DNA of 64,000 nucleotides from Paraburkholderia edwinii (GTDB lineage: Bacteria; Pseudomonadota; Gammaproteobacteria; Burkholderiales; Burkholderiaceae): the NCBI RefSeq assembly GCF_019428685.1, contig NZ_CP080096.1:682001-746000 (forward strand). The letters are read 5' to 3'. Under the pieces are notes generated by a model. It was not told the origin of the DNA and did not search any database. It worked only from the letters and a program-made list of their open reading frames with translations. Made by a program: the position numbers and the translations under genes. Positions 5,225 to 26,022 of this stretch are shown piece after piece (within the stretch, counting starts at the first letter, position 1; each line of letters starts with the position of its first letter).

Positions 5225-5238
5225 AAGGAGCGTAGGCC

Positions 5239-6228: not shown

Positions 6229-6676
6229 CGGCGATCGAATCGCGCCGTCCATGCATTTCTCTCGCCGATCCGATCGGCGGACCTCGGTCTCTTCAAATCA
6301 ATCGTCACAACAGCGGGTTCCTCTCGCACGTCGACGGTTTCGATGCCGTAGCGACTGCATCCGGATATCGCGCAGATAAAGCGGCGCGACTCTTCTCGCT
6401 CGGCCGAATTTCTCTTTATTTTTTCGCTGCCCGTGAGCATTTCACGGCGGAAAAATTTTGAAATTCTTCTTGTGCCGGTTTTTTTTGTCGTTCTAAATTC
6501 GCCGAAACGAACGACCTACCTGCTGTTGGTGAGCATCCCACAGTAGGCTGAAGAGAAAACCGGCTCGATACCGCTGTCATCACGATACTTACCGTTAAAC
6601 CCAAGCAGTTCTTTATATGTTCAGCACGATTAGAAATCCGAAATGAAGTGATATCCATATAACCGGATCGAGGAAA
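6229..6676 (+). other. 448-bp intergenic region before the porin
   Basis: No convincing gene is seen; the short open frames here lack ribosome sites and family features. The second half is AT-richer, with an 8-T tract near 6480-6487, and should hold the porin promoter. A degenerate copy of the palindromic element found at the two GntR genes lies at 6528-6542. A porin ribosome site (GAGGAAA) precedes ATG 6677. Confidence 0.6.
6528..6542 (+). promoter_or_regulatory. Degenerate GntR-type operator upstream of the porin
   Basis: GGTGAG-CAT-CCCACA, which differs at two positions from TGTGAG-N3-CTCACA, the palindrome present before both GntR genes of the cluster. It is enclosed by a CCTAC (6515-6519) / GTAGG (6543-6547) inverted pair. 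It probably ties porin expression to the catabolic cluster. This is an inference from sequence similarity alone. Confidence 0.45.
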
Positions 6677-7726
6677 ATGCTTAAGTCCATTAAAGGCTGC
6701 TCAGCGGCTGTTTTCGTGTTCTCTGCCATCGCGGCCAAACCTGCGTGCGCAGAGGTCACGCTGTACGGAATTCTCGACACCTTCGTCGGTTACACCAACG
6801 CAAGCGGCAAGGGCGCGCAGACCGCGGAGCAGAGCGGCGGCATCTACGCAAGCCGTGTCGGGGTAAAAGGCAGCGAAAATCTCGGTGGCGGCTTGCGTGC
6901 GACGTTCGATCTCGAGAACGGCATTCTGACGAACACCGGCGCAGCCTCGGATTCGACGCTGGCGTTCAGCCGCAGTGCGTGGGTAGGCCTCGCGAGCCGC
7001 TATGGCGAGGTGCGCTTCGGGCGGCAAAACTCCCCGCTGCTGATCATGCACAGCAAGTTCGATGCATTCAACGGCGGTACATACGGCTCCTTGCTGCACA
7101 ACGCATCGACGTTCTCGTTCCGGTACGACAACATGATCACGTACTGGTCGCCGAACGTTGCGGGATTCACGTTTTCCGGCGGCGTGAGCCTCGGTGGGCA
7201 AACATCGCCGCACGACGCGTTGAATGCGTATGTGGGCGCGATCGACTACCAGCGCGGTCCGGTTTATCTCGGCGTGAGTCACGCCGAGCAGAACGGCGCG
7301 AACGGCGAAGTGCTCACGAAAACGACTTTCGCCGGCGGCAGTTATCAGTTCGGAAAACTGACGGGTTTCTTCGGCTTTTATCGCGGCAACAACCTCGGCT
7401 CGAATCTCAACACGAATGTCGAGGGCAAGTATCACAGCGTGTACTGGCTATCGGCCGGATACCGGGCTACGCCGGCTTGGAGCGTGACGGCGGGCATCGG
7501 CTATGTGGAGGACAGCACCGCGCAGCATAACAACGCGGGCGAAATCAGTCTCGGGACGGTCTACAACCTGAGCAAACGCACGCTGCTTTATGCAACGATT
7601 GCGCGCCTCGTCAACCGGCATGGTGCGACCTATGCACTGATCGGCAATGGGCCGTTCACACCGAATACGCCGGCTCGCGGTGAGGGCGTAACGGGCGCAC
7701 AAGTGGGCATCGTGCAGTTTTTCTAA
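6677..7726 (+). CDS. Gram-negative porin, OmpC/Burkholderia type
   Basis: 349-residue outer-membrane porin. A signal peptide of about 25 residues ends at ACA before EVTLYGILD, the usual mature start of Burkholderia trimeric porins. Typical strand motifs follow: SRVGVKGSENLGGGL, SRSAWVGLASRYGEVRFGRQ and YWSPNVAGFTFSGGV. The protein ends with FF, the C-terminal aromatic signal for outer-membrane assembly. It stands just before the regulator and transporter genes of the decarboxylase cluster and probably admits that cluster's substrate. It is transcribed alone or with the regulator 204 bp downstream. Confidence 0.92.
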   Translation: MLKSIKGCSAAVFVFSAIAAKPACAEVTLYGILDTFVGYTNASGKGAQTAEQSGGIYASRVGVKGSENLGGGLRATFDLENGILTNTGAASDSTLAFSRSAWVGLASRYGEVRFGRQNSPLLIMHSKFDAFNGGTYGSLLHNASTFSFRYDNMITYWSPNVAGFTFSGGVSLGGQTSPHDALNAYVGAIDYQRGPVYLGVSHAEQNGANGEVLTKTTFAGGSYQFGKLTGFFGFYRGNNLGSNLNTNVEGKYHSVYWLSAGYRATPAWSVTAGIGYVEDSTAQHNNAGEISLGTVYNLSKRTLLYATIARLVNRHGATYALIGNGPFTPNTPARGEGVTGAQVGIVQFF

Positions 7727-7810
7727 CGACGCGAACCACGTGAGAGTAACGATGAAAGGCGGGATAGAAGACGGATCCATGCTTGAGCGAATGCCCCTGT
7801 TTTTTTCATC

Positions 7811-7821
7811 TGAGCAGCTCA
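7811..7821 (+). promoter_or_regulatory. Half-conserved operator before the first GntR gene
   Basis: TGAGCAGCTCA, an 11-bp palindrome identical to the core of the stronger site 87 bp downstream. Two spaced copies would allow cooperative binding or looping by the FadR-type regulator. Inference only. Confidence 0.4.
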
Positions 7822-7897
7822 AAAACACTCAAATTTTTCGCGTGCAATTTTTTTATGGCTGTTCTAAGTTAACTCAACGCCTGCTTAGAAAGACGCT

Positions 7898-7912
7898 TGT
7901 GAGCAGCTCACG
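7898..7912 (+). promoter_or_regulatory. Putative operator of the first GntR gene
   Basis: TGTGAG-CAG-CTCACG, a near-perfect palindrome 18 bp before the GTG start. The same form, TGTGAG-N3-CTCACA, occurs before the second GntR gene at 17690-17704. A further inverted repeat, TTCTAAG (7862-7868) and CTTAGAA (7884-7890), lies just upstream. Autoregulation by the adjacent repressor is the simplest reading. Confidence 0.55.
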
Positions 7913-7930
7913 AATCGAGGGAGAGATGTC

Positions 7931-8677
7931 GTGAAAGAGTCAGCCGTTGCATTACCGGTGCAGTTGATCGATTGCTCGAACGAAGCCAAGCTGCTTAGCG
8001 AGCGCGCGTGCTCAACCATCCGGCATGACATCCTGTCCTGCGTCATTGAACCCGCGGCGACACTGACTGAAGCCTCGCTGATGTCGCGTTACGGCATCGG
8101 CAAGGCGACGTGCCGGGTTGCACTGCAGCGGCTCGCGCAGGAGGGTTTTCTGCGAGCCGTACCGCGGCAAGGCTACGTGGTGCGGCCGATCACGCTGAAA
8201 GACGTCGAGGAAGTATTCGCGCTGCGCCTGCAGCTCGAGCCGCTTTCCGCACGGCTTGCCGCGGGCAGGGCCGACATCGCGCTGCTCAGGGAGCTCGAGC
8301 GCGCGTGCCGCAACGACGACGTCTCGCTTGGCATCAACAACCGCATCGGCATCTTTATGGACGCGAACGCAGCCTTTCATATGGCGGTCGCGGAAGCGTC
8401 GGGCAATAGCCGGCTCGTGAAAACACTCGGTGGCTTGCTCAACGAAATGGCGCGGCTCGTTGCACTTGGCTTCGGCGTGCAGAAAACGAAGCCTGAAATA
8501 CGTCACGACCACTCGAAGATGATCGATGCGCTCGAGAGCGGCAATGGCCGCCGCGCCGAACAGATCGCCTACAGGCACGTCGCGACGTTTCGCGACATGA
8601 CAATGGAGAAAGTGATGGCCAGTCTCAGGGACACCCACGCCGGCTCGCCGATCGTACCGTTGCGAGGCACGCGATGA
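7931..8677 (+). CDS. GntR-family (FadR/FCD subfamily) transcriptional regulator 1
   Basis: 248 residues. An N-terminal winged helix covers about residues 22-90, with recognition-helix text YGIGKATCRVALQRLAQEGF. A C-terminal FCD ligand domain follows, with metal-binding residues expected around FHMAVAEASGNSRL and HDHSKMIDAL. The start is GTG with GAGGGAGAG at 7917-7925; no better ATG exists near the helix. It is strongly similar to the regulator at 17758, sharing for example PITLKDVEEVFALRL. It overlaps the ATPase gene by 4 bp, so regulator and importer are one operon. It probably senses the pathway substrate or its CoA ester. Confidence 0.88.
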   Translation: MKESAVALPVQLIDCSNEAKLLSERACSTIRHDILSCVIEPAATLTEASLMSRYGIGKATCRVALQRLAQEGFLRAVPRQGYVVRPITLKDVEEVFALRLQLEPLSARLAAGRADIALLRELERACRNDDVSLGINNRIGIFMDANAAFHMAVAEASGNSRLVKTLGGLLNEMARLVALGFGVQKTKPEIRHDHSKMIDALESGNGRRAEQIAYRHVATFRDMTMEKVMASLRDTHAGSPIVPLRGTR

Positions 8678-9456
8678 GCGCGTTGCCGATGCGGATCGTA
8701 GCCGCAGCGGAGAGCGAGCCGGTGCGTCATGCGGTCGAGCTTGCGCACGTCACGAAGCGTTTCGGCAAGCTGGCGGTGCTCGACGACATTTCGCTCGCGG
8801 CGCCGACCGGTTCCGTGCTGGCCATCGTCGGTGCGTCCGGGTGCGGCAAGAGCACGCTGCTCAACATCATCGCCGGGCTCGTGAAGGCCGATAGCGGCAA
8901 TGTGCGGATCGACGGCGTGGCGGGCAAGCGCTCCGACGATACGCGCGTGATCAGCTACATGTTTCAGGAGGACCGGCTGCTGCCGTGGCGCACGATCGCC
9001 GCCAATGCGGAGTTCGGCCTCGAGGCGGAATCGCTCAATGCGAATGTGCGCCGCGAGCGCGCGCTCGAAATGCTGCACATGACGGGCCTCGAAGGATTCG
9101 AGAACGCGTATCCGCACGAACTGTCGGGCGGCATGCGCAGCCGCGTCGCGCTGGCGCGCAGCCTCGTCGTCAAGCCATACATCCTGCTGATGGACGAGCC
9201 GTTCTCGAAGCTCGACCCGCAGATGCGCTCGCAAATGCACGCAGAGCTTTTGCGTGTGCGCGAACAGCTGAAGATGACGGTGGTGTTCGTCACGCACGAC
9301 GTCGAGGAAGCGATCGTGCTGGCCGACCGCGTCGTCGTGTTGCGGCCGCGCCCGGGACGCGTGCGCGATGTGCTCACTATCGATCTCGCGCGTCCGCGGA
9401 ATCCGCTTGCGGCCGACGTGGCTGAAACCGTGCGCCATGTGCGCGCCCTTATCTAA
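8674..9456 (+). CDS. ABC transporter ATP-binding protein, SsuB/TauB/NrtD type
   Basis: 260 residues with Walker A GASGCGKST, signature LSGGMRSRVALARS (Gln of the usual motif replaced by Met), Walker B ILLMDEPFSKLD and the switch histidine in FVTHDVEEA. Length and the lack of a C-terminal regulatory domain fit the nitrate/sulfonate/taurine subfamily, which works with NMT1-like binding proteins such as the two encoded downstream at 15976 and 18596. The start is embedded in the regulator stop (ATGA). It should energise the permease at 9467. Confidence 0.9.
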   Translation: MSALPMRIVAAAESEPVRHAVELAHVTKRFGKLAVLDDISLAAPTGSVLAIVGASGCGKSTLLNIIAGLVKADSGNVRIDGVAGKRSDDTRVISYMFQEDRLLPWRTIAANAEFGLEAESLNANVRRERALEMLHMTGLEGFENAYPHELSGGMRSRVALARSLVVKPYILLMDEPFSKLDPQMRSQMHAELLRVREQLKMTVVFVTHDVEEAIVLADRVVVLRPRPGRVRDVLTIDLARPRNPLAADVAETVRHVRALI

Positions 9457-9466
9457 GGACAATACG

Positions 9467-10276
9467 ATGTCGTCGGTTCCCGCAGTTTCTTCCGCTATGC
9501 CGGCTCGATCCGCCCGGATGAGCGGCTTCGTACGCGTCGCGTTGCAGCGGTTGTCGCTCGTCGCCGTGTTGCTGGTTTTATGGTGGCTCGCTGCACAACG
9601 TGTACCGGCGTTCATCTTGCCGGGCATCGGCAAAACCTGGGATGCGCTGCGCGAACTCGTCGCGTCCGGCACGTTTACCGAGGATCTGGGTATTACGTTG
9701 TACCGGGTGGTGGCGGGCTTCGTACTTGCGGCGTTGATCGGCACGCCGCTCGGCATTCTGCTCGGCTCGAACCGGCGGCTCGGTCACTATTTCGAACCGG
9801 TGCTATCGGTGCTTAATACCGTGTCCGCGGCGATCTGGGCGATCTTTGCGCTGATCTGGTTCGGCATCTCCAACGGCACGACGATCTTCGTGGTTTTCAT
9901 GGAAGCGATGCCGCTGATTCTGACCAACGTCTGGCAGGGTTCGCAAAGCGTCAACGCGGAGTACGTCGAACTCGCACGCAGCTTCCAGATGTCGCGGGCG
10001 AAGGTGATGGCGAAAATCTACCTTCCGACCGTGCTGCCCTACTTTTTTTCAGGCGCGCGGCTTGCGTTCGGTTTCGGCTGGCGGGTGTCGCTGGTTGCCG
10101 AAACAATCGGTTCGTCGAACGGCGTCGGCTACCGGCTGCGCCAGGCCGCGGACCTCGTGCAGACCGATCAGGTCTTTGCATGGACACTGACCTTGATCTG
10201 CCTGATGGTCTTGCTCGAATACGGCATTCTGAAGCCGATCGAGAACTACCTGTTCCGCTGGAAAAGACGGGTGTGA
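9467..10276 (+). CDS. ABC transporter permease, SsuC/TauC type
   Basis: 269 residues with about six membrane helices and the EAA loop YVELARSFQMSRAKVMAKIYLP, as in SsuC. The frame is open upstream into the ATPase gene, but ATG 9467, 10 bp after the ATPase stop and preceded by AAGGAC, gives a proper cytoplasmic N-terminus (MSSVPAVSSAMPARSARM). This is the only permease in the cluster, so it must serve both binding proteins or work with one of them at a time. The transported compound is unknown; SsuC relatives carry small organic anions. Confidence 0.9.
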   Translation: MSSVPAVSSAMPARSARMSGFVRVALQRLSLVAVLLVLWWLAAQRVPAFILPGIGKTWDALRELVASGTFTEDLGITLYRVVAGFVLAALIGTPLGILLGSNRRLGHYFEPVLSVLNTVSAAIWAIFALIWFGISNGTTIFVVFMEAMPLILTNVWQGSQSVNAEYVELARSFQMSRAKVMAKIYLPTVLPYFFSGARLAFGFGWRVSLVAETIGSSNGVGYRLRQAADLVQTDQVFAWTLTLICLMVLLEYGILKPIENYLFRWKRRV

Positions 10277-10338
10277 CCCGCTAATACGAATCACCAGAGC
10301 CTTCTGATTGTTTTTAATGAATATATATAGGATTCCAT

Positions 10339-11352
10339 ATGAGTGAAAAGATGAGAGCGTTGATTCTCGACGAGCATGGCGATGTCGACAAGTTGCGGGT
10401 CGGCGAGAAGCCGATGCCGAAGGCGATCGCGCAACACGTCGTGATTCGCGTGCGTGCGTCGTCGTTCAACTATCACGACGTGTTTACCGTGAGAGGCATG
10501 CCCGGCATCAAGGTGCCGTTGCCGGTCGTGATCGGACTCGACATGGCCGGGGAGATCGTCGAAGTCGGCGACGACGTCGAAGGCTGGCAGGTCGGCGCTC
10601 GCGTGCTCGTGAACCCGCTCAACAGGAAGAAAGGCCTGATGGGCGAAATGCTCGACGGCGGCATGGCCGAGTATTGCCTCGTTGCCGCCGATCAGCTAAT
10701 CGCGATGCCCGATGAGGTGAGCTTCGAGCAGGCGGCTTCGTTGCCTGTCGCCTACGGCACCGCGCATCGCATGCTCGTCACGCACAAGACGATCAAGGCC
10801 GGCGACCGCGTCGTGATTCTCGGCGCGAGCGGCGGCGTCGGCACGGGCTGCGTCGTGCTGGCCAAGATGCTCGGCGCCGAAGTCGTAGCTGCGGCGGGCA
10901 GTGCCGACAAGGCCGAACGGCTGAAGGCGCTGGGCGCGGACCACGTGATCAACTACAAGGAAGTCGATTTCTCGAAGTGGGTCGTCGAGAAATACGGCAA
11001 GCCGCAGCGGCGCAACTATGAAGGCGGCGCGGACGTCGTGATCAATTTCACCGGCGGCGACACGTGGGTGCCGTCGCTCAAGTGCATCAAACGCGGCGGT
11101 TCTCTTCTCGTCTGCGGCGCAACGGCCGGGCACGATCCGAAAGAGGATTTGCGCTACATCTGGAGCTTCGAGATCCGTGTGATTGGCTCGAACAGTTTCT
11201 ATGACGACAACCTGTCCGCGTTGATGGAACTGATCCGCACGAAACAGATCTCCGTGCAGATCGACAAGGTGTTGCCGCTGGAACAGGCCGCCGAGGGGTT
11301 GCGCATGATTCGCGATCGCGAAGTGCTCGGCAAGATCGTCGTTACACCTTGA
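10339..11352 (+). CDS. MDR-family zinc-independent alcohol dehydrogenase/quinone reductase-like protein
   Basis: 337 residues. An N-terminal GroES-like domain (ASSFNYHDVFTVRGMPG, VIGLDMAGEIVEVGDDV) precedes a Rossmann domain with VVILGASGGVGTGCVVLAKMLGAEVV near residues 155-180. The structural cysteines that bind zinc in classic alcohol dehydrogenases are absent from the usual segment, so it resembles NAD(P)H-dependent quinone oxidoreductases and enoyl reductases. It begins 62 bp after the permease gene in an AT-rich gap. It may reduce a conjugated double bond in the imported or decarboxylated product. Substrate unknown. Confidence 0.82.
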   Translation: MSEKMRALILDEHGDVDKLRVGEKPMPKAIAQHVVIRVRASSFNYHDVFTVRGMPGIKVPLPVVIGLDMAGEIVEVGDDVEGWQVGARVLVNPLNRKKGLMGEMLDGGMAEYCLVAADQLIAMPDEVSFEQAASLPVAYGTAHRMLVTHKTIKAGDRVVILGASGGVGTGCVVLAKMLGAEVVAAAGSADKAERLKALGADHVINYKEVDFSKWVVEKYGKPQRRNYEGGADVVINFTGGDTWVPSLKCIKRGGSLLVCGATAGHDPKEDLRYIWSFEIRVIGSNSFYDDNLSALMELIRTKQISVQIDKVLPLEQAAEGLRMIRDREVLGKIVVTP

Positions 11353-11366
11353 GCGCGGAGATCAAC

Positions 11367-11807
11367 ATGACAGAAGCAAAACAGCTGAGCGCCGAAGACA
11401 TCCAGGCGCTGCTCACGCGCGGCCCCTATCATCAATGGCTCGGCCTGCGGGTGCTGAGCGTCGGCGAAGGGGAAATCGAAATCGCCGCGAAATGGCGCGA
11501 AGAATGGGTCGTCAACCCGGAACGGCGTTATACGCATGGCGGCATTCTTGCCGCACTCGTCGACCTGACCGCGGACTGGGCGCTCGTTTCGAAAACGGGC
11601 AAGGGCGTGCCGACCATCGATCTGCGTGTCGACTATCACCGTGCGGCGATGCCGGGCGATCTGGTTGCGCGCGGCAAGGTCATCAAGTTCGGCAGTTCGG
11701 TGTCGGTCGCCGAGGCGTCGATTTACGACCAGTCGGGTGTGTTGCTCGCGAGCGGCCGAGGTGTCTACTCGACTGCGCCCGCGCCGACGCCTGCGTCGAA
11801 AACGTGA
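11367..11807 (+). CDS. PaaI-type hotdog-fold thioesterase
   Basis: 146 residues of single hotdog fold. The characteristic active-site region is RRYTHGGILAALVDLTADWAL (His-Gly-Gly before the central helix), followed by TIDLRVDYHRAAMPGDLVARG, typical of the PaaI/4HBT group that hydrolyses acyl-CoA thioesters. ATG 11367 is chosen over an upstream in-frame TTG at 11349 because GGAG sits at 11357-11360, 6 bp before it. In this operon it could release the acid from the CoA ester made by the ligase at 12725, or relieve stalled CoA intermediates. Confidence 0.83.
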   Translation: MTEAKQLSAEDIQALLTRGPYHQWLGLRVLSVGEGEIEIAAKWREEWVVNPERRYTHGGILAALVDLTADWALVSKTGKGVPTIDLRVDYHRAAMPGDLVARGKVIKFGSSVSVAEASIYDQSGVLLASGRGVYSTAPAPTPASKT

Positions 11808-11826
11808 CTTCGACGTGACGCAGCGC

Positions 11827-12738
11827 ATGAACACCGGCCCCTCGACCGCCATTGGTCGGACACTCGATCACGTCGTCGTCAACGCGATGTTCGACATCGA
11901 CGCCGCCGCAGCCTGTTTTGCCGAACTCGGCTTCGCCCTGACGCCGCGCGGTTATCACTCGCTCGGCTCCGTCAACCACTTGATGATGTTCGGCGATCAC
12001 TACCTAGAACTGGTCGGTTTGCCGGCCGGTTCGACGCGGTTGCGGCGCGAAATACTCGAAAGCCGCCTCGGCATCGACGGGCTAGTGTTCAGAACCGATG
12101 ACGCGCGCGCGACCCATGCGCGGCTTATCGCGGCGCGCATCAATGCGACTGAACCTCAATCGTTCTCGCGGCCCGTGACGATCGACGGCGTCGAGCAACT
12201 GGCGAAGTTCGCGACGACGCGGCTCGAACCGGGCGAGCTGTCCGCAGGACGCGTCTACTTTTGTGAGCATCTGACGCCGCAATGGGTGTTTCGCGACGAA
12301 TGGACGAAGCACCCGTACCACGCAAAGCGTCTCGCCGAACTGGTCGTGGTGTGCGCGGATCCGCGTGCGGAAGCGCAACGCTACGCACTGATCGCCGGCG
12401 AGGGCAGCGTGACAGCGGCGGCGGACGGTACAGGCACGCAATTGAGCCTGCAAGGGTTCGGCCTGCGCTTCGTCGACGAAGCCCGATACAGGGCTCTCTA
12501 CGGGCCGCTCGCGTGCCACGCCGCCGACCGCGCGAGCTACTTCGGCGCGCTTGTCATCGAAACCGCCGATCTGCATGCGGTGCGCGAAAAACTGGCATCG
12601 ATGGCGCGCGACGATCCTGCCGCAGTGAAAGTTGCGCACGCAACGACCGGCGACGGCACGCCGGTCGTTCGCGCCCTGCTGCTCCCATTCAACACCTTGA
12701 TCGAATTTATCGGAACTGTCGAACATGCACACTCCTGA
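11827..12738 (+). CDS. VOC-superfamily (glyoxalase-like) protein
   Basis: 303 residues with a vicinal-oxygen-chelate start, LDHVVVNAMFDIDAAAACFAELGFALTPRG, and a later FGDHYLELVGLP that resembles metal-ligand strands. The first and second halves each show a beta-alpha-beta-like repeat, as in Glyoxalase_3-domain proteins. An in-frame GTG at 11815 is an alternative start; neither has a clear ribosome site, and the gene begins 19 bp after the thioesterase. It overlaps the ligase gene by 14 bp. VOC proteins include dioxygenases, isomerases and hydrolases; which reaction applies here is unknown. Confidence 0.75.
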   Translation: MNTGPSTAIGRTLDHVVVNAMFDIDAAAACFAELGFALTPRGYHSLGSVNHLMMFGDHYLELVGLPAGSTRLRREILESRLGIDGLVFRTDDARATHARLIAARINATEPQSFSRPVTIDGVEQLAKFATTRLEPGELSAGRVYFCEHLTPQWVFRDEWTKHPYHAKRLAELVVVCADPRAEAQRYALIAGEGSVTAAADGTGTQLSLQGFGLRFVDEARYRALYGPLACHAADRASYFGALVIETADLHAVREKLASMARDDPAAVKVAHATTGDGTPVVRALLLPFNTLIEFIGTVEHAHS

Positions 12739-14260
12739 GAATCTCGGCGACCTGATCGACGCCGCCCGGGATCCGCACAAGCTTGCGTTGGTCGCGCTCG
12801 GGGATCTGGATGAAACGGAGGACGGCTGGCGCGACACGCGCATCACGTACGGCGAACTCGATGCGCTGGCCAACGGCGTCGCGCGTGCGCTCGAGCGGCG
12901 CGGGTTCGCACGCGGCCAACGCATCGCGATTCTCGCCGCCAATTGCGCGGAGTACGTGGCGGCCTTGCTTGGCATCATGCGCGCCGGGCTCGTCGCGACG
13001 CCCGTCAACTTCAGGTTTCCGCAAGCGCTGTCAACGTTTGTGATGCAAGACAGCGATGCGCAACTGGTGTTTTGCGACGCCGCGCGGCTCGCCGATTGCC
13101 CGGCCGGCTTGCCGGCCGTCGTGTTCGATTCGGACGGCGCCGACGGCTTTGCGTCGTTCGTGGATCCCGGCGCTTACGACGCCGTCGTACCCGAGCCGGG
13201 CACGGCCGCGATGTTTCTCTATACGTCGGGGTCCACCGGCAAGCCCAAAGGCGTGATGCTGTCGCACGACAGCCATCTGTGGGTCGCGCGTACGCGTGCG
13301 GCTGCGCAGCCGCCCGAGGCGCATCGTTTTCTCGTCGCGGCGCCGCTCTATCACATGAACGCGCTGACGCTCGTGCTGATGTCGCTATACGGCCACGGCA
13401 CGGTGGTGCTGTTGCCGCAGTTCAAGGCACGTGCCTACATCAGGGCGATCGAGCGCTATGGCGTCACATGGCTCACGTCGGTCCCGCCGATGATCGCGAT
13501 GATGCTGCGCGAACCGGACCTGCTCGCGCGCACTAATCTCGCGTCGGTGCGGTTTATCCGGATGGGCTCGGCGCCCGTCGGCGAAAGCCTGCTCGAGCAG
13601 ATCGCGGAGGTCTTCCCGAATGCGAAAGTGACGAACGTGTACGGGACGACGGAAGGCGGGCCGATCGTGTTTGGCCCGCATCCGGACGGTCTCGAGCCGC
13701 CTCCGTTATCGGTCGGCTATCCGCATCCCGAAGTGCGGGTGAAGCTGCTCGAGGCGCCTGCGAACGGCGCGGCGACCGGTGTGCTGGCGGTCAAAAGCCC
13801 GGCGGTGATGCTCGGCTATCACAACCGCAAGGACTTGCCGGTGCCGCTGACCGACGACGGCTTCTATGTGACCGGGGACGTGTTTCATCGCGACGAGCAG
13901 GGTTTTTACACGTTCGTCGGCCGTGCTGACGACATGTTCGTGTCGGGTGGCGAAAACATTTTCCCCGGCGAAGTCGAGCGCATGCTCGAAATGCACCCCG
14001 ATATCGCACAGGCCTGTGTCGTGCCGGTGAACGACGACATCAAAGGCACCAAACCGGTTGCATTTGTCGTGCGCCGCGCGGGAGCCGCGCTGACGGAGAA
14101 CGATGTGAAGCAGTACGCGCTTGCGCACGCGCCCGCTTATCAGCATCCGCGGCGGGTCTGGTTTATCGATTCGCTGCCGCTCGCGTCGACCAACAAGATC
14201 GATCGCGCGGGATTGAAACACACCGCACACGCAGAACTGTCCGCAAGCGGAGCCGCCTGA
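12725..14260 (+). CDS. AMP-forming acyl/aryl-CoA ligase
   Basis: 511 residues of the ANL superfamily. The phosphate-binding loop LYTSGSTGKPKGVM lies near residue 165, the adenine motif VYGTTEGGP near 310, the hinge region YVTGDVFHRDEQGFYTFVGR near 385, and the catalytic lysine in LASTNKIDRAGL near 490. It activates a carboxylic acid as its CoA thioester. Position between VOC and UbiD genes suggests an aromatic or heteroaromatic acid, but the substrate pocket cannot be read by eye. The start at 12725 overlaps the VOC gene, consistent with coupling. Confidence 0.9.
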   Translation: MHTPENLGDLIDAARDPHKLALVALGDLDETEDGWRDTRITYGELDALANGVARALERRGFARGQRIAILAANCAEYVAALLGIMRAGLVATPVNFRFPQALSTFVMQDSDAQLVFCDAARLADCPAGLPAVVFDSDGADGFASFVDPGAYDAVVPEPGTAAMFLYTSGSTGKPKGVMLSHDSHLWVARTRAAAQPPEAHRFLVAAPLYHMNALTLVLMSLYGHGTVVLLPQFKARAYIRAIERYGVTWLTSVPPMIAMMLREPDLLARTNLASVRFIRMGSAPVGESLLEQIAEVFPNAKVTNVYGTTEGGPIVFGPHPDGLEPPPLSVGYPHPEVRVKLLEAPANGAATGVLAVKSPAVMLGYHNRKDLPVPLTDDGFYVTGDVFHRDEQGFYTFVGRADDMFVSGGENIFPGEVERMLEMHPDIAQACVVPVNDDIKGTKPVAFVVRRAGAALTENDVKQYALAHAPAYQHPRRVWFIDSLPLASTNKIDRAGLKHTAHAELSASGAA

Positions 14261-14303
14261 TGACCGAACGGAATTCCGCATTCACCCCATCGAGGAGACG
14301 AAC

Positions 14304-15899: not shown

Positions 15900-15930
15900 G
15901 GCACGGCAACCGGCCATCCACCTTCAACCG

Positions 15931-15958
15931 GGGCCGTGCCGCCGAGGCGGCACGGCCC
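15931..15958 (+). terminator. Strong hairpin after the UbiD gene
   Basis: GGGCCGTGCCGCC (15931-15943) pairs with GGCGGCACGGCCC (15946-15958), 13 bp with a tiny loop. Only CTT follows, so it is a weak intrinsic terminator or an mRNA-stabilising/attenuating stem that lowers or protects expression of the next gene. Confidence 0.6.
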
Positions 15959-15975
15959 TTCCGGGAAGAGCTGAC

Positions 15976-16992
15976 ATGACGCAATTTCACCAGCGCGCGA
16001 CGCGGCTTCTGTTCACCGTCGCGTTCTGCTTCGCTTCAATTGCTACACAGGCCGCCCAGGCCGCGCCGCTGCGCATCGGCTACTGGACGAGCGGCGTGAG
16101 CCTCGGTCTCGGCGCGGTACTCGAGACTGGCGATTTCCTCAAGAAAGCCGGCATCGACGACGTGCGTTTCGTGCACTTCGCCGAAGTGAACGCGCCGGCA
16201 AGCGGGCTTGCCGCGAACGTAATCGACATCAGTTTCAGTGTGCCTGGCACCAGCGCATTCAGCATCGCGTCGACGGGTGTGCCGATCAGGATCTTCGGCG
16301 CGACGGCGCCGGCGGACGTAACCTTCGTTGCGCCCGCAACGTCTTCGGTCACGTCGCTGTCCGGATTGCGCGGCAAGAAGATTGGCATGTCGCCGGCGGG
16401 CAGTTCGGTCGCGCTGATGACTGCCGCGGTGCTGCGCGCGAACTACGGCTTTACGCCCGCGGATTACGCGCTCGTGCCCGGCAACGAAGCGCGGCTCGCG
16501 CAGTTCCTGATGCAACAGCAGGTGGATGCGGCCGCGCTGCGCTCCGTCACCGTCGCGCAATTGACCGAAGTCAAAACGAAACGGCTCGGCACGCTTGCCG
16601 ACGAATGGCGCAAGCTCACGCACTCGGACGCCATGCCGTACCTCGGCGTCGGCGCCGTGCGTAGCGAACTGATTCAACGCGATCCGCAAACGGTGGCGAA
16701 ATTCATCGTCGCGATTCATAACGCGATTGCGTGGGGCAATGCGCATCCGGATCAGGTCGCCGCGATTCTGCAGAAGGTGGCCAATCTGCCGGCGAGCGAT
16801 GCGCGCATCTATGCCGCGCATTGGGCCGAACTCAATACGATTTCGTTCGAACCCGCCGATATCGACACGCTCAAGCGCGAGCAGCAGATCTTCGCGGCAA
16901 GCGGCGCGATCAAGGGAACGCTGCCGGCCGATGTGTTCGTGAGCGAGCCTTATCAGATGGCGAAGAAGCTCATCGCCGCGCAAAAACCATGA
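15976..16992 (+). CDS. NMT1/SsuA-like ABC solute-binding protein 1
   Basis: 338 residues with a signal peptide ending near AAQAAP, then LRIGYWTSGVSLGLGAVLE, the opening strand and loop of the NMT1/aliphatic-sulfonate binding fold. The frame is open from 15592, but ATG 15976 is preceded by GGGAAGAG and gives the only credible signal peptide. It is a clear paralogue of the protein at 18596, with the same YWTSG motif, FVHFxxVN and GKKIGMSP. It lies after the hairpin, so it may be expressed differently from the enzymes. Ligand probably a carboxylate. Confidence 0.87.
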   Translation: MTQFHQRATRLLFTVAFCFASIATQAAQAAPLRIGYWTSGVSLGLGAVLETGDFLKKAGIDDVRFVHFAEVNAPASGLAANVIDISFSVPGTSAFSIASTGVPIRIFGATAPADVTFVAPATSSVTSLSGLRGKKIGMSPAGSSVALMTAAVLRANYGFTPADYALVPGNEARLAQFLMQQQVDAAALRSVTVAQLTEVKTKRLGTLADEWRKLTHSDAMPYLGVGAVRSELIQRDPQTVAKFIVAIHNAIAWGNAHPDQVAAILQKVANLPASDARIYAAHWAELNTISFEPADIDTLKREQQIFAASGAIKGTLPADVFVSEPYQMAKKLIAAQKP

Positions 16993-17026
16993 GTGCGCTG
17001 TATCGATCGAAGACGCGAGGCGCGTT

Positions 17027-17623
17027 ATGGATATGAACACAGCACCGTTGGGCAGCCGCCGACGCATCGTCGTCGGCATCAGCGGCGCGTCCGGTGCGGT
17101 TTATGGCGTGAGGTTGCTGCAGCTGTTGCGCGAGCTCGATGTCGAGACGCACCTCGTCGTGAGCCGTTCGGCGCAGGTGACGCTGTCGCAGGAGATGGGC
17201 CTGCAGCTAGCCGACGTGAAAGCGCTCGCCAACGTTCATTACCCGAATGCCGATATCGGGGCGGCGATTTCGAGCGGGTCGTTCCGTGTCGACGGGATGA
17301 TCGTTGCGCCTTGCTCGATCAAGACGCTGTCGGAGATCGCGACCGGCTGCACGAGCTCGCTGCTCTCGCGAGCGGCCGACGTGATGGTGAAGGAGCGCAG
17401 GCGGCTCGTGCTGATGGTGCGTGAAACGCCGTTACACGCTGGGCATATCCGCAGTCTCGCGGCGGTGACGGAAGCGGGGGCGATTGTTTATCCGCCGGTT
17501 CCCGCGTTCTATGCGCGGCCAGCATCGATCGAAGAGATGATCGATCACACGCTCGGCCGGGTGCTCGATCTGTTCGACGTCGACGCGCGCACGGTGCGCC
17601 GGTGGCAAGGAGCCATCAGTTGA
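17027..17623 (+). CDS. ubiX: UbiX-family flavin prenyltransferase
   Basis: 198 residues. UbiX/Pad1 proteins join dimethylallyl phosphate to FMN to form prenyl-FMN, the UbiD cofactor. Hallmarks are IVVGISGASGAVYGVRLL near residue 14, IVAPCSIKTLSEIATG near 90, and the VRETPLHAGHIRSLAAVTEAGA segment near 130 that closes the active site. It begins 34 bp after the binding-protein gene. Co-location with UbiD at 14304 strongly supports both calls. It is probably a pathway-dedicated copy, because a housekeeping ubiX is expected elsewhere. Confidence 0.93.
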   Translation: MDMNTAPLGSRRRIVVGISGASGAVYGVRLLQLLRELDVETHLVVSRSAQVTLSQEMGLQLADVKALANVHYPNADIGAAISSGSFRVDGMIVAPCSIKTLSEIATGCTSSLLSRAADVMVKERRRLVLMVRETPLHAGHIRSLAAVTEAGAIVYPPVPAFYARPASIEEMIDHTLGRVLDLFDVDARTVRRWQGAIS

Positions 17624-17645
17624 ATTGAAGGTATTTTGACCGCTG

Positions 17646-17704
17646 TTTACTCGGAAATTTGCGTCTCCTAGAATGGGTTTCAGAAAGGCTGTGAGGTGCT
17701 CACA
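17646..17704 (+). promoter_or_regulatory. Promoter and operator of the second GntR gene
   Basis: A sigma-70-like promoter, TTTACT (17646-17651), 17-bp spacer, TAGAAT (17669-17674), is followed by the perfect palindrome TGTGAG-GTG-CTCACA at 17690-17704, just past the expected start of transcription. The palindrome matches the element before the first GntR gene. Bound repressor there would block elongation, consistent with autoregulation. Confidence 0.6.
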
Positions 17705-17757
17705 AAGCCACGTAAGCCTAACAAACGAAACACCACGGGTAAGGGGAGCGAAGTCCT

Positions 17758-18498
17758 ATGCGAGCAAAGATCGTATCAGCGGGTAAGGCAGCGGGTAAGG
17801 CGGCGGGCGAGAGCATGCTGCTTGGCGAGTCCACATATATCGCCATCAGGCAGGCCATTCTGTCCTGCACGTTGCAGCCGGGCAGCATGCTGACCGAAGC
17901 GGAGCTAATGGATCGATATGGTGTCGGCAAGTCCACCTGCCGTCTTGCGCTTGCGCGCCTCACGCACGACGGCCTCGTGCGTTCGGTGCCGCGCCACGGC
18001 TATGTGGTCGTGCCGATCACGCTGAAGGACGTCGAGGAAGTGTTTGCGCTGCGCCTGATTCTCGAGCCGGAAGCCGCGCGGCTCGCCGCCGGCCACGTCG
18101 ATGCGAAAGCATTGATGCGTATCGACAAGGCGGCGCGCGGTAATACCGCGTCGAAGAATCACGGCAATCAGATCGGCTTCTTTCTCGACGGCAATCGCGC
18201 GTTTCATTTGCATATTGCGTCGGCATCCGGAAACGAGCGTCTGGTGCGCAGCATCTCGGTGCTGTTCGACGAAATGGCGCGCCTCGTCGCACTCGGCTTT
18301 AGCGATGAAGACGACAGCCCGGAGATTTCCGGCGATCACCGGATGCTGGCGGAAGCGCTCGGCGCCGGCGACGGCAAGACCGCGTCGCGCATTGCGCGGC
18401 GGCACGTCGAACGGTTTCGCGACATGACGATGGAGCGCGTATTGCGCAGCATGAAGCAGGATTTCGAGCATGCGCCGCTGATGGCAATCGGAAAGTAA
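17758..18498 (+). CDS. GntR-family (FadR/FCD subfamily) transcriptional regulator 2
   Basis: 246 residues, paralogue of the regulator at 7931. The winged helix includes YGVGKSTCRLALARLTHDGLVRSVPRHGYV. The shared PITLKDVEEVFALRL linker leads into an FCD domain with FHLHIASASGNERLV and DHRMLAEAL. It starts at ATG 17758, 54 bp after its operator. The N-terminus is rich in Ala, Gly and Lys (SAGKAAGKAAGES). The two regulators share a DNA half-site form but differ in the ligand domain, so they may respond to two related effectors. It is followed by the second binding protein and the oxygenase genes. Confidence 0.88.
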   Translation: MRAKIVSAGKAAGKAAGESMLLGESTYIAIRQAILSCTLQPGSMLTEAELMDRYGVGKSTCRLALARLTHDGLVRSVPRHGYVVVPITLKDVEEVFALRLILEPEAARLAAGHVDAKALMRIDKAARGNTASKNHGNQIGFFLDGNRAFHLHIASASGNERLVRSISVLFDEMARLVALGFSDEDDSPEISGDHRMLAEALGAGDGKTASRIARRHVERFRDMTMERVLRSMKQDFEHAPLMAIGK

Positions 18499-18595
18499 GC
18501 GAGGCGGGCAGGACGCGATACCTCGCAGCAGGATTGGGGTCCTCGATTCGAGGTCGTTTCACACAGGCCGCATGGCCGCATCCGCGTTCGACACA

Positions 18596-19591
18596 ATGAA
18601 GATATCTCGCGTTATCTCGCAGCTTCTAATGGTGTGCATCTTCGCGCTCGGCACCATGCGCGGCGCCGTTGCCGCCGAATTGCGCGTCGGCTACTGGACG
18701 AGCGGCATCAGCCTCGGTTTCGGCGCGGTGCTCGAAGCACAGAAGTTCTTCGAGAAGCAGGGCTTGCAGGTGAAGTTCGTGCATTTCCCCGATGTGAACG
18801 GGCCCACCACAGCGCTTGCGTCCAATGCGATCGATCTCGCGTTCGGCACCAGTCTTGCCGGCGCATTCAGCCTCGCGCAACAGGGCGTGCCGGTGCGCAT
18901 CGTCGCGGCGACGCAGCTGGTCGACGCGGAACTCGTGGTGCTTGCCGATTCGCCGATTCGCAACCCTGGCGAGCTGCGCGGCAAGAAAATCGGCATGTCG
19001 CCGCTCGGCAGCGGCACGACGGGCGTCGGCACCGCGGTGCTCGACGGCAACTACGGCCTCAAGCTCGCCGATTACCGCCTCGTAGCCGGCGACGAACCTC
19101 GCCTCGCGCAGTTTCTGCTGCAAAAGAACGTCGACGCCGCGGTGATGCGCCCGACGACGGTCGCTCAGGTGTCCGACAGCGCGACCCGGATTCGCGTGCT
19201 CGGCACGCTCTCGGACCAATGGAAGCAGATGACTCGCTCGTCGTCGCCGCCGTACATCGGCGTGGCCGTGATGCGCGACGAGTGGCTGAAAAGCAATCCG
19301 GCCGACGCGGCCAAGGTGCTAGCTGCGATGCGCGCGGCGGTGCAGTTCGGCGCCGCGAATCCGGATGCGGTCGTGTCGATCCTGAAGAAGGCGGCCAACC
19401 TGAACGACAGCGGCGCACGCTTTTACGGCGAGCACTGGAGCACGATGAACACCGTCGCATTCGGGCCCGACGACGTCGCGACGCTCAAGCGAACCTTCGG
19501 CGTGTTCAAGGCGGCGGGCACCCTGAAGGGTGAATTGCCGGCGGACCTGTTCGACCCGAAACCCTACCTTGACGCGGAGAAAATGAAATGA
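18596..19591 (+). CDS. NMT1/SsuA-like ABC solute-binding protein 2
   Basis: 331 residues with a good signal peptide (ISQLLMVCIFALGTMRGAVAA) followed by ELRVGYWTSGISLGFGAVLEA. An in-frame ATG at 18572 would add eight residues; 18596 gives the better signal sequence. It is paralogous to the protein at 15976 throughout. The stop overlaps the Rieske alpha start (ATGA), so this binding protein is co-translated with the oxygenase, suggesting its ligand is the oxygenase substrate. No second ATPase or permease is present in the cluster. Confidence 0.87.
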   Translation: MKISRVISQLLMVCIFALGTMRGAVAAELRVGYWTSGISLGFGAVLEAQKFFEKQGLQVKFVHFPDVNGPTTALASNAIDLAFGTSLAGAFSLAQQGVPVRIVAATQLVDAELVVLADSPIRNPGELRGKKIGMSPLGSGTTGVGTAVLDGNYGLKLADYRLVAGDEPRLAQFLLQKNVDAAVMRPTTVAQVSDSATRIRVLGTLSDQWKQMTRSSSPPYIGVAVMRDEWLKSNPADAAKVLAAMRAAVQFGAANPDAVVSILKKAANLNDSGARFYGEHWSTMNTVAFGPDDVATLKRTFGVFKAAGTLKGELPADLFDPKPYLDAEKMK

Positions 19592-20844
19592 CGACAAGTC
19601 CCGTCGCGCTTCCGGCGAGCAGGATCGTATGGCCTGCGGAAGGCATCACTCGCGTGCCGCTGCGTGTGTTTTCCGATACGACCACCTATGAACGCGAGCA
19701 GGACGCGGTATTTCGTGGTCCGACATGGAGCTTCCTGTGCCTCGACATCGAGATACCGAACCCCGGCGATTACGTCACCACGAAAGTCGGGCATACGTCG
19801 GTAATCGTCGTGCGGCATCAGGACGGCGGCATCCGCGCCCTCGTGAACAAATGCGTGCATAAGGGCTCCGTGCTGTGCTACGAAGCGCAGGGCAACCGCA
19901 AACGGCCGAACTTCGTGTGTCCGTACCACAACTGGGTCTACAACTTCGAAGGCGAGCTGACGAGCGTGGCCTTCGAAAAGGGCGTGCAAGGCAAGGGCGG
20001 GATGCCCGACGATTTCGACAAGACGCAGTATCGCCTGACCACATTGCGTGTCGCGAGCATCCGCGGCCTCGTGTTCGGTTCGTTTTCGGACGAAGCGCCG
20101 CCGCTCGAAGACTACCTCGGGCCAACGATGGTCGCGCATATCAAGCGCACGCTATACGGCACGCCGAAAATTCTCGGCCGCTACAGCCAGGTGATGCACA
20201 ACAACTGGAAGCTGTATGTCGAGAATAGTCGCGACAACTATCACCCGAGCCTGCTGCACGCATTCTTTTCGACGTTCAAGATCAACCGGCTGTCGGCCGA
20301 AGGCGGCACGCTGCAAGATGAAGACAGCCGTCATCACATCACGTTTACGAAGCGCTTCACCGACGCCGGCGACGCGGCATACGACTCCGGCATCATCCGC
20401 GCAATGCGCGACGACTTCGGGCTGAAAGACCCGTCGCTGATCGATCAGTGGATGGAGTACCCGGACCAGATCACCAATGCGATCCAGAGCATCTTTCCGG
20501 GCTTCGTGCTGCATCAGATCATGAATTCGATCGGCGTGCGTCAGGTAGTGCCGCTCGCAGTCGATCGCTGCGAATTGATCTGGACGGTGCTCGGTTTCGA
20601 GGAGGACACACCGGAACAAACACTGATCCGCCGCAAGCAAAGCAACCTGGTCGGTCCGGCCGGGTTTGTTTCGATGGAGGACGGCACGATCGGCGCGTTC
20701 GTCGAGAAGGGCATTCGCGGCGACCTCGACGATGCGGCGGTGATCGAGATGGGCGGCAAGGGCACCGGACCGATGGCGACCCGCGCGACGGAAACGTCCG
20801 TGCGCGGCTTCTGGAAATTTTATCGGGAATTGATGCATGTCTAG
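19588..20844 (+). CDS. Rieske ring-hydroxylating oxygenase, alpha subunit
   Basis: 418 residues. The Rieske 2Fe-2S ligands are Cys89 and His91 in NKCVHKG and Cys111 and His114 in FVCPYHNW; the 19-residue gap is slightly long. The catalytic iron site is in the ENSRDNYHPSLLH segment, with Asp216 as the electron-bridging residue and His219 and His224 as ligands. The protein resembles the anthranilate/salicylate/terephthalate-type group. It overlaps the beta gene by 8 bp. It should dihydroxylate or hydroxylate an aromatic acid. No ferredoxin or reductase is encoded within the window, so electrons must come from a partner elsewhere. Confidence 0.92.
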   Translation: MTTSPVALPASRIVWPAEGITRVPLRVFSDTTTYEREQDAVFRGPTWSFLCLDIEIPNPGDYVTTKVGHTSVIVVRHQDGGIRALVNKCVHKGSVLCYEAQGNRKRPNFVCPYHNWVYNFEGELTSVAFEKGVQGKGGMPDDFDKTQYRLTTLRVASIRGLVFGSFSDEAPPLEDYLGPTMVAHIKRTLYGTPKILGRYSQVMHNNWKLYVENSRDNYHPSLLHAFFSTFKINRLSAEGGTLQDEDSRHHITFTKRFTDAGDAAYDSGIIRAMRDDFGLKDPSLIDQWMEYPDQITNAIQSIFPGFVLHQIMNSIGVRQVVPLAVDRCELIWTVLGFEEDTPEQTLIRRKQSNLVGPAGFVSMEDGTIGAFVEKGIRGDLDDAAVIEMGGKGTGPMATRATETSVRGFWKFYRELMHV

Positions 20845-21346
20845 CACGACCACGCGTTTTTCCGACATCGAAATCGGCACGCACGCGCAGGCGTGTATCA
20901 GCCGCCTCAATGCGCACTATTGCAGCGCGATCGACAATGGCGATCTCGAACGGTGGCCCACGTTCTTCGCCGACGATTGCACGTATCGCATTCTGACCCG
21001 CGCCGATTTCGACGCAGGCCGCGATTTCGGCATCTGGTTCTGCAACACGCGCGGCATGCTGCTCGACCGTGTCAGTTCGATACAGTCGGTCAACGTGTTC
21101 GAGCCGCACGTGTATCGCCATGTGATCAGCCCGACGGAAATCGTCGGCGTCGACACGGACGGCACGATCCGTTGCGAGACCAGCTATATGGTCGTACGCA
21201 CCGGCTATGAAGGGACGATGATGGTGTTCAGCGCGGGCCGGTACGTCGACGCGGTCAGCATCGAAGGCGACGCTGCGCTGCTGCGCGAACGGACGGTCGT
21301 TACCGACTCGTGCCGCTACGACACGCTCGTCGCGTTGCCTTTGTGA
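20837..21346 (+). CDS. Rieske ring-hydroxylating oxygenase, beta subunit
   Basis: 169 residues, the usual beta-subunit length. It shows the NTF2-like start (LNAHYCSAIDNGDLERWPTFFADDCTYRIL) and the family RVSSIQSVNVFEPHVYRHVISP segment. Beta subunits form the alpha3beta3 oxygenase and mostly play a structural role. The start lies inside the end of the alpha gene and the products are surely co-expressed. The 2-hydroxyacid dehydrogenase gene begins 12 bp after its stop. Confidence 0.9.
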   Translation: MSSTTTRFSDIEIGTHAQACISRLNAHYCSAIDNGDLERWPTFFADDCTYRILTRADFDAGRDFGIWFCNTRGMLLDRVSSIQSVNVFEPHVYRHVISPTEIVGVDTDGTIRCETSYMVVRTGYEGTMMVFSAGRYVDAVSIEGDAALLRERTVVTDSCRYDTLVALPL

Positions 21347-21358
21347 CCGGTCGTGTCT

Positions 21359-22375
21359 ATGACCGATGCGACAAAGCATTTCCGGCTGCACCTCGAAAGC
21401 CAGAGCCGGCAGGCGCCCGCTTTCCATCTGGATCCCGCGGCCTGGCAGCAGGCGTCGCTGCGCCATGCTGAACTGGCGCGGCGCGTCGACATATCGTTCG
21501 GATGGGACGGCGAGCGGTTCGCCACGCCGCTCGACGACGTCGACTTTCTGCTGGCGTCGCGTTTCCCGCACGCGGCGGTCAACGCGGCACCGCGCCTGAA
21601 GTGGATTCATACGACCGGCGCCGGCGTCGACCAGCTGTTGCCGCTCGATCGTCTGCGCGACGACCTGATATTGACGAACAGCAGCGGCATTCATGTCGAC
21701 AAGGCCGGCGAGTTCGTGCAAATGGCGCTGCTGATGTTGAATGCGCAACTGCCCGCGGTATTGCGCGCGCAGCATGAGCACCGCTGGGATGCGCGGCTGA
21801 CCGCGCCGATTCGCGGCAAGACTGCGCTTCTGATTGGCCTCGGCGATCTTGGCCTAACGGCGAGCCGCGGCGCGAAGACGCTCGGTTTGCGTGTGATCGC
21901 GTTCAACCGCAGCGGTCGCGCACCGGTGTCGGCTGCATCGGGAGCGGACATGCCCGATTGGCTGGCGTCGGTGTCGGAGCTCGATAGATGGCTTCCCGAA
22001 GCGGATTTTGTCGTCGTCACGGCTCCATTGACACCGGCAACGCGCGGCCTGCTTTCCGCCGCGCGGCTGGCGGCGATGCGACAGGGCGCGTGCGTCGTGA
22101 ATCTGTCGCGCGCCGCACTCGTCGACTATCCGGCCTTGTTCGAGCGGCTGCGTACGGGCGCCTGCGGCGGTGCGGTGCTCGACGTGTTCGACCCGGAGCC
22201 GCTTCAGGGCGACAGCCCGGTATGGGACGTGCCGGGCCTGATCGTCACGCCGCATATCTCATGCGACGCGCCGGACTATAACCAGCGCGTGCTCGACTTG
22301 TGGTTCGGCAATTTTTCCAGATGGCTGCGCGGCGAACCGCTCGCCAATATCGTCAGCCGCGAACAGGGGTACTGA
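21359..22375 (+). CDS. D-isomer-specific 2-hydroxyacid dehydrogenase family protein
   Basis: 338 residues. The nucleotide-binding motif LLIGLGDLGLTASRGAKTLG is near residue 160. VVNLSRAALVDYPALFERL carries the catalytic Arg. DVFDPEPL and TPHISCDAP carry the acid/base Glu and His region. ATG 21359 is chosen; an in-frame GTG at 21353 is possible. Neither has a strong ribosome site, so coupling to the oxygenase genes is likely. The family reduces 2-keto acids or oxidises D-2-hydroxy acids with NAD(P)H. Here it could instead act on a ring-derived product. It is the last gene before a hairpin. Confidence 0.85.
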   Translation: MTDATKHFRLHLESQSRQAPAFHLDPAAWQQASLRHAELARRVDISFGWDGERFATPLDDVDFLLASRFPHAAVNAAPRLKWIHTTGAGVDQLLPLDRLRDDLILTNSSGIHVDKAGEFVQMALLMLNAQLPAVLRAQHEHRWDARLTAPIRGKTALLIGLGDLGLTASRGAKTLGLRVIAFNRSGRAPVSAASGADMPDWLASVSELDRWLPEADFVVVTAPLTPATRGLLSAARLAAMRQGACVVNLSRAALVDYPALFERLRTGACGGAVLDVFDPEPLQGDSPVWDVPGLIVTPHISCDAPDYNQRVLDLWFGNFSRWLRGEPLANIVSREQGY

Positions 22376-22555: not shown

Positions 22556-23560
<1,005 letters not shown>

Positions 23561-23687
23561 TGTCGATGTAATGCGCGCCGCGCGGACGCTGCATGCGTCC
23601 GCGCCCGGCGAGCGCGCCTGCATCTTCGTTTCCTTCGTTTCCTGCGTTTTCTGCGTTTCTCATCCGGCGTACCGTGAGGTGTCATCC

Positions 23688-25921: not shown

Positions 25922-26022
25922 TGCGGTGGCGACGCTTGCCGCCCCATGTTTTAGCGCGCGTTTCAATGCGAATGTCAGCGCGCGTTTGAGAGAACTGCCA
26001 GTCATTACTCTGGAGAGCATAA

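Follow-up and report, generated by a model that had tools for sequence, protein, structure and literature searches.

Which compound is broken down by the products of a cluster of sixteen genes in Paraburkholderia edwinii, and do these genes serve one pathway? The cluster occupies positions 6677-22375 of the window, i.e., the whole stretch of 64,000 nucleotides (C2:682001-746000) that was analysed from the 8.3 Mb genome with its two contigs. It encodes a UbiD-type decarboxylase together with UbiX, a Rieske oxygenase, a coenzyme A (CoA) ligase, an importer and further enzymes. All sixteen genes were identified on the plus strand by domain searches with Pfam and NCBIfam, and every gene named in a preliminary description of this DNA was recovered at its place. 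Two GntR-type regulators (53% identity to each other) and the paralogy of two binding proteins (46% identity) were missing from that description. On balance, the cluster probably forms a single catabolic system whose substrate is an aromatic acid carrying two carboxyl groups in a para-like arrangement, and which acts by the steps proposed below. The parts belong to known families. The combination is without counterpart in the open-access literature searched, NCBIfam, Pfam and the solved structures, as had been supposed before.

Linkage of the decarboxylase and oxygenase genes

Linkage of the UbiD gene (14304-15899) with the genes for the alpha (19588-20844) and beta (20837-21346) subunits of the Rieske oxygenase was analysed in an evenly drawn sample of 399 Burkholderiales genomes, using E-value cut-offs of at most 1e-180 for UbiD and at most 1e-150 for the Rieske protein. 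UbiD was present in 25 genomes and the Rieske orthologue in 13. All 13 Rieske-bearing genomes also contained UbiD, located on the same contig and strand at a distance of 588-3691 bases (Fisher p 6e-18, kinship ignored). The linked pair spans three families, with a UbiD-Rieske spacing of about 0.6 kb in the third. Within the own genus (58 genomes, own genome included), UbiD was found in four genomes at an identity of at least 91%, and the same four carried the Rieske protein at at least 90%. Proteins of 98% identity were found in Paraburkholderia strains. A phylum-wide draw of 398 genomes yielded UbiD in three genomes and the Rieske protein in one, the own genome. Identical gene order was observed in Paraburkholderia, Caballeronia and Burkholderia loci (L034-L036, L046-L054), with the exceptions of L046 (no UbiX match) and L053 (another porin, 31%). 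Since gene order is kept in these loci and UbiD stands beside the Rieske genes in 13 of 13 genomes, the grouping is not due to chance, and the earlier proposal of one linked system was borne out. Besides Caballeronia and Pigmentiphaga, P. xenovorans LB400 (locus L050) carries the cluster. The UbiD core was found in Polynucleobacter and many uncultured betaproteobacteria, and also in Rhodoplanes, Skermanella, Neorhizobium and Phyllobacterium.

Neighbourhoods were compared for the best 80 of 155 UbiD loci; 53 of these had more than 5 kb on each side, and the rest include short contigs. The 53 well-flanked loci contained a thioesterase in 53 cases, an MDR reductase in 51, a CoA ligase in 46, a VOC protein in 46, a dehydrogenase in 39, UbiX in 32 and a cysteine dioxygenase-type cupin in 19. 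The complete core of MDR reductase, thioesterase, CoA ligase and UbiD was present in 46 of them. A Rieske alpha subunit occurred in 20 at any identity and in 19 at at least 55%; at the latter threshold it was found in 24 of all 80 loci, the 56 others including some on short contigs. The UbiD core is spread wider than the Rieske part. The preliminary description had counted the oxygenase as part of the combination. It is absent from 56 of the 80 loci, from 34 of the 53 well-flanked loci and from 12 of the 25 UbiD-bearing genomes, and is thus not essential to it. Because the core works without it in many lineages, the most suitable reading of the Rieske cassette is that of an add-on through which a related dicarboxylate would be fed into the core.

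Around the UbiD core of loci without Rieske genes (L092, L077, L086, L093 and others), a Cds1-like pyridoxal phosphate-dependent enzyme, a gamma-glutamyltransferase or an AsnC regulator was observed; these partners hint at amino-acid or sulfur chemistry. Among 84 related loci, 23 (e.g., L074:7867-8376, L066) have the cysteine dioxygenase-type cupin (PF05995) close to the MDR reductase; it is absent from the window. The cupin carries HxH and SxHxY motifs. The own genome contains six UbiD-family matches (L001-L006), five besides the cluster UbiD. A distant UbiD copy with an in-frame TAG stop (L155, G163:C327:17082-18674) may be decaying or reflect a sequencing error. Six metagenome-bin records (L083, L088, L090, L095, L106, L121) are titled Bordetella parapertussis; their UbiD loci resemble those of uncultured betaproteobacteria, and the titles are probably wrong.

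Intergenic gaps within the cluster do not exceed 73 bp, except for 448 bp before the porin gene, 204 bp before the gene of GntR/FCD regulator 1 (GntR1, 7931-8677), 134 bp before that of GntR/FCD regulator 2 (GntR2, 17758-18498) and 246 bp after the dehydrogenase gene. Based on this pattern, the cluster was interpreted as a porin gene and two operons (7931-17623 and 17758-22375). The exact palindrome TGTGAGNNNCTCAC, a probable operator, is located at 7898-7911, 19 bases before GntR1, and at 17690-17703, 54 bases before GntR2. The palindrome is rare: four separate copies exist in the 8.3 Mb of the genome, two of them in the cluster, and a reversed-pattern control gave none. The other two copies (G000:C1:1028720 and C1:1521001) could mark further regulon members. 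The 13-base form with at most one mismatch was found at five sites in the window, compared with a shuffle mean of 1.65. Five sites were reached in 3 of 100 shuffles, so that the weaker, operator-like palindromes upstream of the porin (6433-6445, imperfect with one mismatch, and another at 6529-6541) are unconvincing alone. In ten other Burkholderia-group loci (L034, L035, L046, L048-L054), 16 exact 13-base sites were found, with one to three per locus; 15 of the 16 stand directly before the porin, GntR1 or GntR2 gene. L035 and L047 represent a single contig. Of 71 other loci, one contains any exact site.

The presence of two regulators and two binding proteins could also be explained by two separate adjoining pathways that each possess one of the regulators and one of the binding proteins, the first built on UbiD and CoA chemistry (7931-17623) and the second on the Rieske oxygenase (17758-22375). 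The 56 of 80 loci with a UbiD core and no Rieske genes fit this explanation, as does Pigmentiphaga (L055), in which the importer and Rieske genes are located on the strand opposite UbiD. We consider such a division unlikely: the Rieske orthologue was not found without UbiD in any of the 399 genomes, the cluster encodes a single ATPase/permease pair next to its two binding proteins, the palindromes are common to both operons of the window, and UbiD and Rieske genes are only about 0.6 kb apart in the third family.

The UbiD decarboxylase and its putative ring-facing position

The decarboxylase was assigned to the UbiD family by TIGR00148 (290 bits, cut-off 244.85), and its R147, E251 and E256 (E-R-E) are invariant in 32 aligned sequences. 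UbiX (17027-17623) scored above cut-off with TIGR00421 (245.5 versus 108.9 bits). Judged by sequence, the two proteins make up a prenylated flavin mononucleotide (prFMN) apparatus. The nearest solved chains to UbiD are 6h6v (261 bits), named HmfF in PMC8988006, AroY (171 bits) and AnInD (161 bits). H296 of HmfF is aligned with N292, an asparagine shared by 120 of 120 close relatives, the window protein included; copies of 62-66% identity lie outside that set. Of two HmfF arginines that we take to be important, R304 aligns with R300 of the cluster protein and R331 is aligned to a phenylalanine. According to PMC7976604, the HmfF residue matching N318 of HudA is a key for furan specificity, and the amide oxygen of HudA N318 faces the ring nitrogen of bound imidazole. 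An asparagine at this pyrrole-decarboxylase-type position therefore hints at nitrogen in the substrate.

The likeness to HudA (PA0254, pyrrole-2-carboxylate decarboxylase) is that asparagine at the ring-heteroatom position (HudA N318, cluster N292). The enzyme does not belong to the HudA/Fdc branch, with 84.8 bits to 4ip2 versus 261 to 6h6v; HudA itself is described as dimeric and as close to Fdc1 (PMC7976604). The anaerobic phthalate pathway with phthaloyl-CoA decarboxylase likewise combines UbiD, UbiX and a CoA-forming enzyme. Unlike that system, the cluster UbiD reaches 73 bits to 8oz5 versus 261 to 6h6v, an oxygenase is present and benzoyl-CoA genes are lacking from the cluster. The cluster UbiD also extends about 85 residues beyond HmfF at its C-terminus (window 15645-15896), with several positions invariant in the 32 sequences. 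In the structure model, this tail is arranged as helix-helix-helix-strand-strand, a pattern that we read as winged-helix-like.

With HmfF as the nearest solved relative, a variant of the 5-hydroxymethylfurfural/2,5-furandicarboxylate route has to be considered, in which UbiD would act as HmfF and form 2-furoate, the CoA ligase would act as HmfD, the thioesterase would stand in for HmfE, and another enzyme would replace the molybdenum furoyl-CoA dehydrogenase. Many metagenome annotations of close UbiD relatives do read '2,5-furandicarboxylate decarboxylase 1', decarboxylase, CoA ligase and thioesterase fit the logic of the hmf genes (gene table of PMC12064950), and 2,5-furandicarboxylic acid is described as a terephthalate substitute. 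The route is nevertheless improbable. The molybdenum dehydrogenase HmfABC is absent from the sixteen genes and from 20 annotated neighbour families, the histidine linked with furan specificity is an asparagine in 120 of 120 relatives, HmfF is devoid of the C-terminal tail, and RidA, which accompanies the Rieske cassette in other lineages, would have no obvious role on a furan.

Carboxylate contacts of the Rieske oxygenase

The single-system reading derives its para-like dicarboxylate from the oxygenase. The closest solved relatives of the alpha subunit are terephthalate dioxygenases (451 bits), followed by salicylate 5-hydroxylase (294 bits). In terephthalate dioxygenase (TPADO), R309 grips one carboxylate, and N224, S243 and R390 grip the other; the latter three are described for TPADO alone among five characterised members (PMC9060491). 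R309, N224, S243 and R390 correspond to R318, N233, T252 and R399 of the window protein, so that most carboxylate contacts are kept by alignment. Both N224, R309 and R390 and the 2-His-1-Asp iron site were present in 89 of 89 proteins with at least 58% identity to the window alpha subunit. Relatives at 38-43% identity contain R309 alone (7/7) and in no case N224 with R390 (0/7). As N224, R309 and R390 are retained, the substrate of the oxygenase is probably a para-type aromatic dicarboxylate, not necessarily terephthalate. Phylogenetic analysis of 56 rows placed all 31 that were labelled as UbiD-linked in one group (support 98/96); labels were set by identity to the window protein, with linkage checked for the rows in fetched loci.

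The cluster oxygenase resembles TphA2A3 (PDB 7q04, 7vju) in its alpha/beta composition, in an alignment over nearly the whole alpha subunit, and in the iron ligands and the contacts R309, N224, R390 and I290. It differs in its separate clade, in the mostly threonine or valine at S243, and in the adjacent UbiD in 13 of 13 sampled genomes. The best NCBIfam models for the two subunits are those of anthranilate 1,2-dioxygenase, AndAc (412 bits) and AndAd (141.8 bits). Unlike true members, the subunits remained below the curated cut-offs of 750 and 230, and N224 with R390 are reported only for TPADO among the five characterised members.

Terephthalate degradation as generally known proceeds without UbiD, CoA ligase or RidA. 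A divergent terephthalate pathway, with the Rieske enzyme forming the terephthalate cis-diol and the dehydrogenase replacing TphB to give protocatechuate, would suit the nearest solved relative, the retained contacts and the lack of any other Rieske match at E 1e-80 or better in the own genome, but is very unlikely in view of the separate clade, the absence of a PdxA-type (TphB) gene from the sixteen genes and of a TphA1/NAD_binding_1 reductase from the window, the aerobic phthalate gene sets called conserved in PMC13040137 (which gives a TphB structure from LB400), and the second Rieske protein that LB400 has in addition to the cluster, grouped with seven own-genus Rieske proteins outside the clade.

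No hmfABC, boxABC, tphB or phthalate marker genes were found among the sixteen genes, in agreement with what had been noted before; the lack of hmfABC sets the cluster apart from the hmf pathway and that of boxABC from the box/benzoyl-CoA epoxidase pathway. Each of the known systems compared (tph, hmf, box, anthranilate and phthaloyl-CoA) departs from the cluster in at least one tested defining feature.

A RidA gene was found in 14 of the 24 Rieske loci, behind the dehydrogenase gene on the same strand and 1.5-1.7 kb from Rieske alpha, and in none of the 56 loci without Rieske genes (Fisher p 1e-9, kinship ignored). In several loci, a second Rid-family gene (family f19) is inserted between UbiD and the Rieske genes. 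This restriction of RidA to loci with the Rieske cassette hints at nitrogen. The substrate ring is possibly nitrogen-containing or amino-substituted; given a single pathway, the chances for and against nitrogen are about even.

Gene layout, proposed route and meaning

The general porin (Porin_4, Pfam 167 bits) is encoded at 6677-7726. In the first operon, GntR1 is followed by the ABC importer ATPase (8674-9456), for which NCBIfam gave matches under cut-off only, the nearest being the models of SaoA and of sulfate, taurine and betaine importers, and by the permease (9467-10276), the start of which was chosen by us in a reading frame opening at 9368. Next are the MDR enoyl/quinone-type reductase (10339-11352), the hotdog thioesterase (11349-11807; TIGR00369, 85 bits, above cut-off), the two-module VOC protein (Glyoxalase_3, 11827-12738; Pfam, alignment, model and fold match) in which H15 and E61 are conserved without exception across 31 aligned sequences, the acyl/aryl-CoA ligase (AMP-binding, 12725-14260), UbiD, NMT1/SsuA-type binding protein 1 (15976-16992, start also chosen by us) and UbiX. 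The second operon comprises GntR2, NMT1/SsuA-type binding protein 2 (18572-19591), Rieske alpha and beta, and a D-2-hydroxyacid dehydrogenase family protein (21353-22375). The cluster is flanked upstream by DhaL/DhaK dihydroxyacetone kinase genes (4586-6228) and downstream by genes of a ribose-type ABC importer that include a DUF2291 lipoprotein (22622-27087). Both were taken as systems separate from the cluster.

In the proposed route, the acid and a relative would enter through the porin and through the ABC importer, served by its two paralogous binding proteins, and a GntR regulator would bind TGTGAGNNNCTCAC in front of both operons. Dihydroxylation of the dicarboxylate would fall to the Rieske oxygenase, supplied by a reductase encoded elsewhere, and the 2-hydroxyacid dehydrogenase, joined by RidA in other lineages, would handle a non-aromatic or imine product. 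UbiD would take off one carboxyl group, after which the CoA ligase would activate the remaining acid, the MDR enzyme would reduce its conjugated double bond and the thioesterase would release the reduced acid. An isomerisation, hydrolysis or ring-opening step may be performed by the VOC protein. The preliminary description had guessed at a dicarboxylic or heteroaromatic acid that is decarboxylated and dioxygenated. The dicarboxylate signature of the oxygenase and a furan-dicarboxylate enzyme as nearest solved relative of UbiD agree with this; substrate identity and the order of the steps are what we infer beyond these data.

Several observations weigh against this reading. A single genus (g13, family f13) accounts for 11 of the 13 linked genomes, and the remaining two come from f1 and f46. 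L049 has one exact palindrome within its VOC gene (L049:7962). Of the porin, GntR1 and GntR2 genes, only that of the porin is preceded by the exact palindrome in L048-L053, so that common control of both operons by this site cannot be extended to these loci. S243 is kept in only 9 of the 89 proteins with at least 58% identity (threonine in 60, valine in 19, methionine in 1). The two diagnostic contacts also occur outside the UbiD-linked clade, N224 in 28 and R390 in 29 of 29 further top hits, and both in each of the 10 relatives that share 45-52% identity. None of the genome's ten NAD_binding_1-type reductase matches is located in the window, and domain searches revealed no ferredoxin among the sixteen genes; the electron donor must therefore come from elsewhere. 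The dehydrogenase occurs without Rieske genes as well (about 30 of 59 loci). The equivalence of N292 and HudA N318 was drawn through a pairwise HMMER alignment to HmfF, in which the sole histidine at that place is H296 of the chain, numbered H297 in PMC7976604. Neither the window nor any of the nine Burkholderia-group Rieske loci (L046-L054) contains RidA, so that nitrogen is an argument from other lineages. The tenth Rieske locus without RidA is L097, where the contig ends at that point. P. xenovorans LB400 possesses up to 12 ridA copies (PMC12117332).

The most specific form of the single-system reading is tentative and less likely than not. Under it, betaproteobacteria of soil and freshwater, together with some alphaproteobacteria, would share an aerobic route that has not been described before. 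A dicarboxylate-clamping Rieske dioxygenase and a new subfamily of UbiD, marked by its winged-helix-like tail, might together open a nitrogen-containing aromatic dicarboxylate (e.g., pyrrole- or pyridine-dicarboxylate), RidA-type enzymes might hydrolyse the imine, and the CoA/MDR/thioesterase module might saturate the product.

If the single-system reading is true, a class of ring dicarboxylates would gain a further catabolic route, and a subfamily of UbiD would be placed in a defined operon. There is demand for prFMN decarboxylases as catalysts of reversible carboxylation, and for terephthalate-type oxygenases in connection with plastic monomers. A linked UbiD-Rieske pair with conserved, testable binding residues would accordingly be a useful handle.

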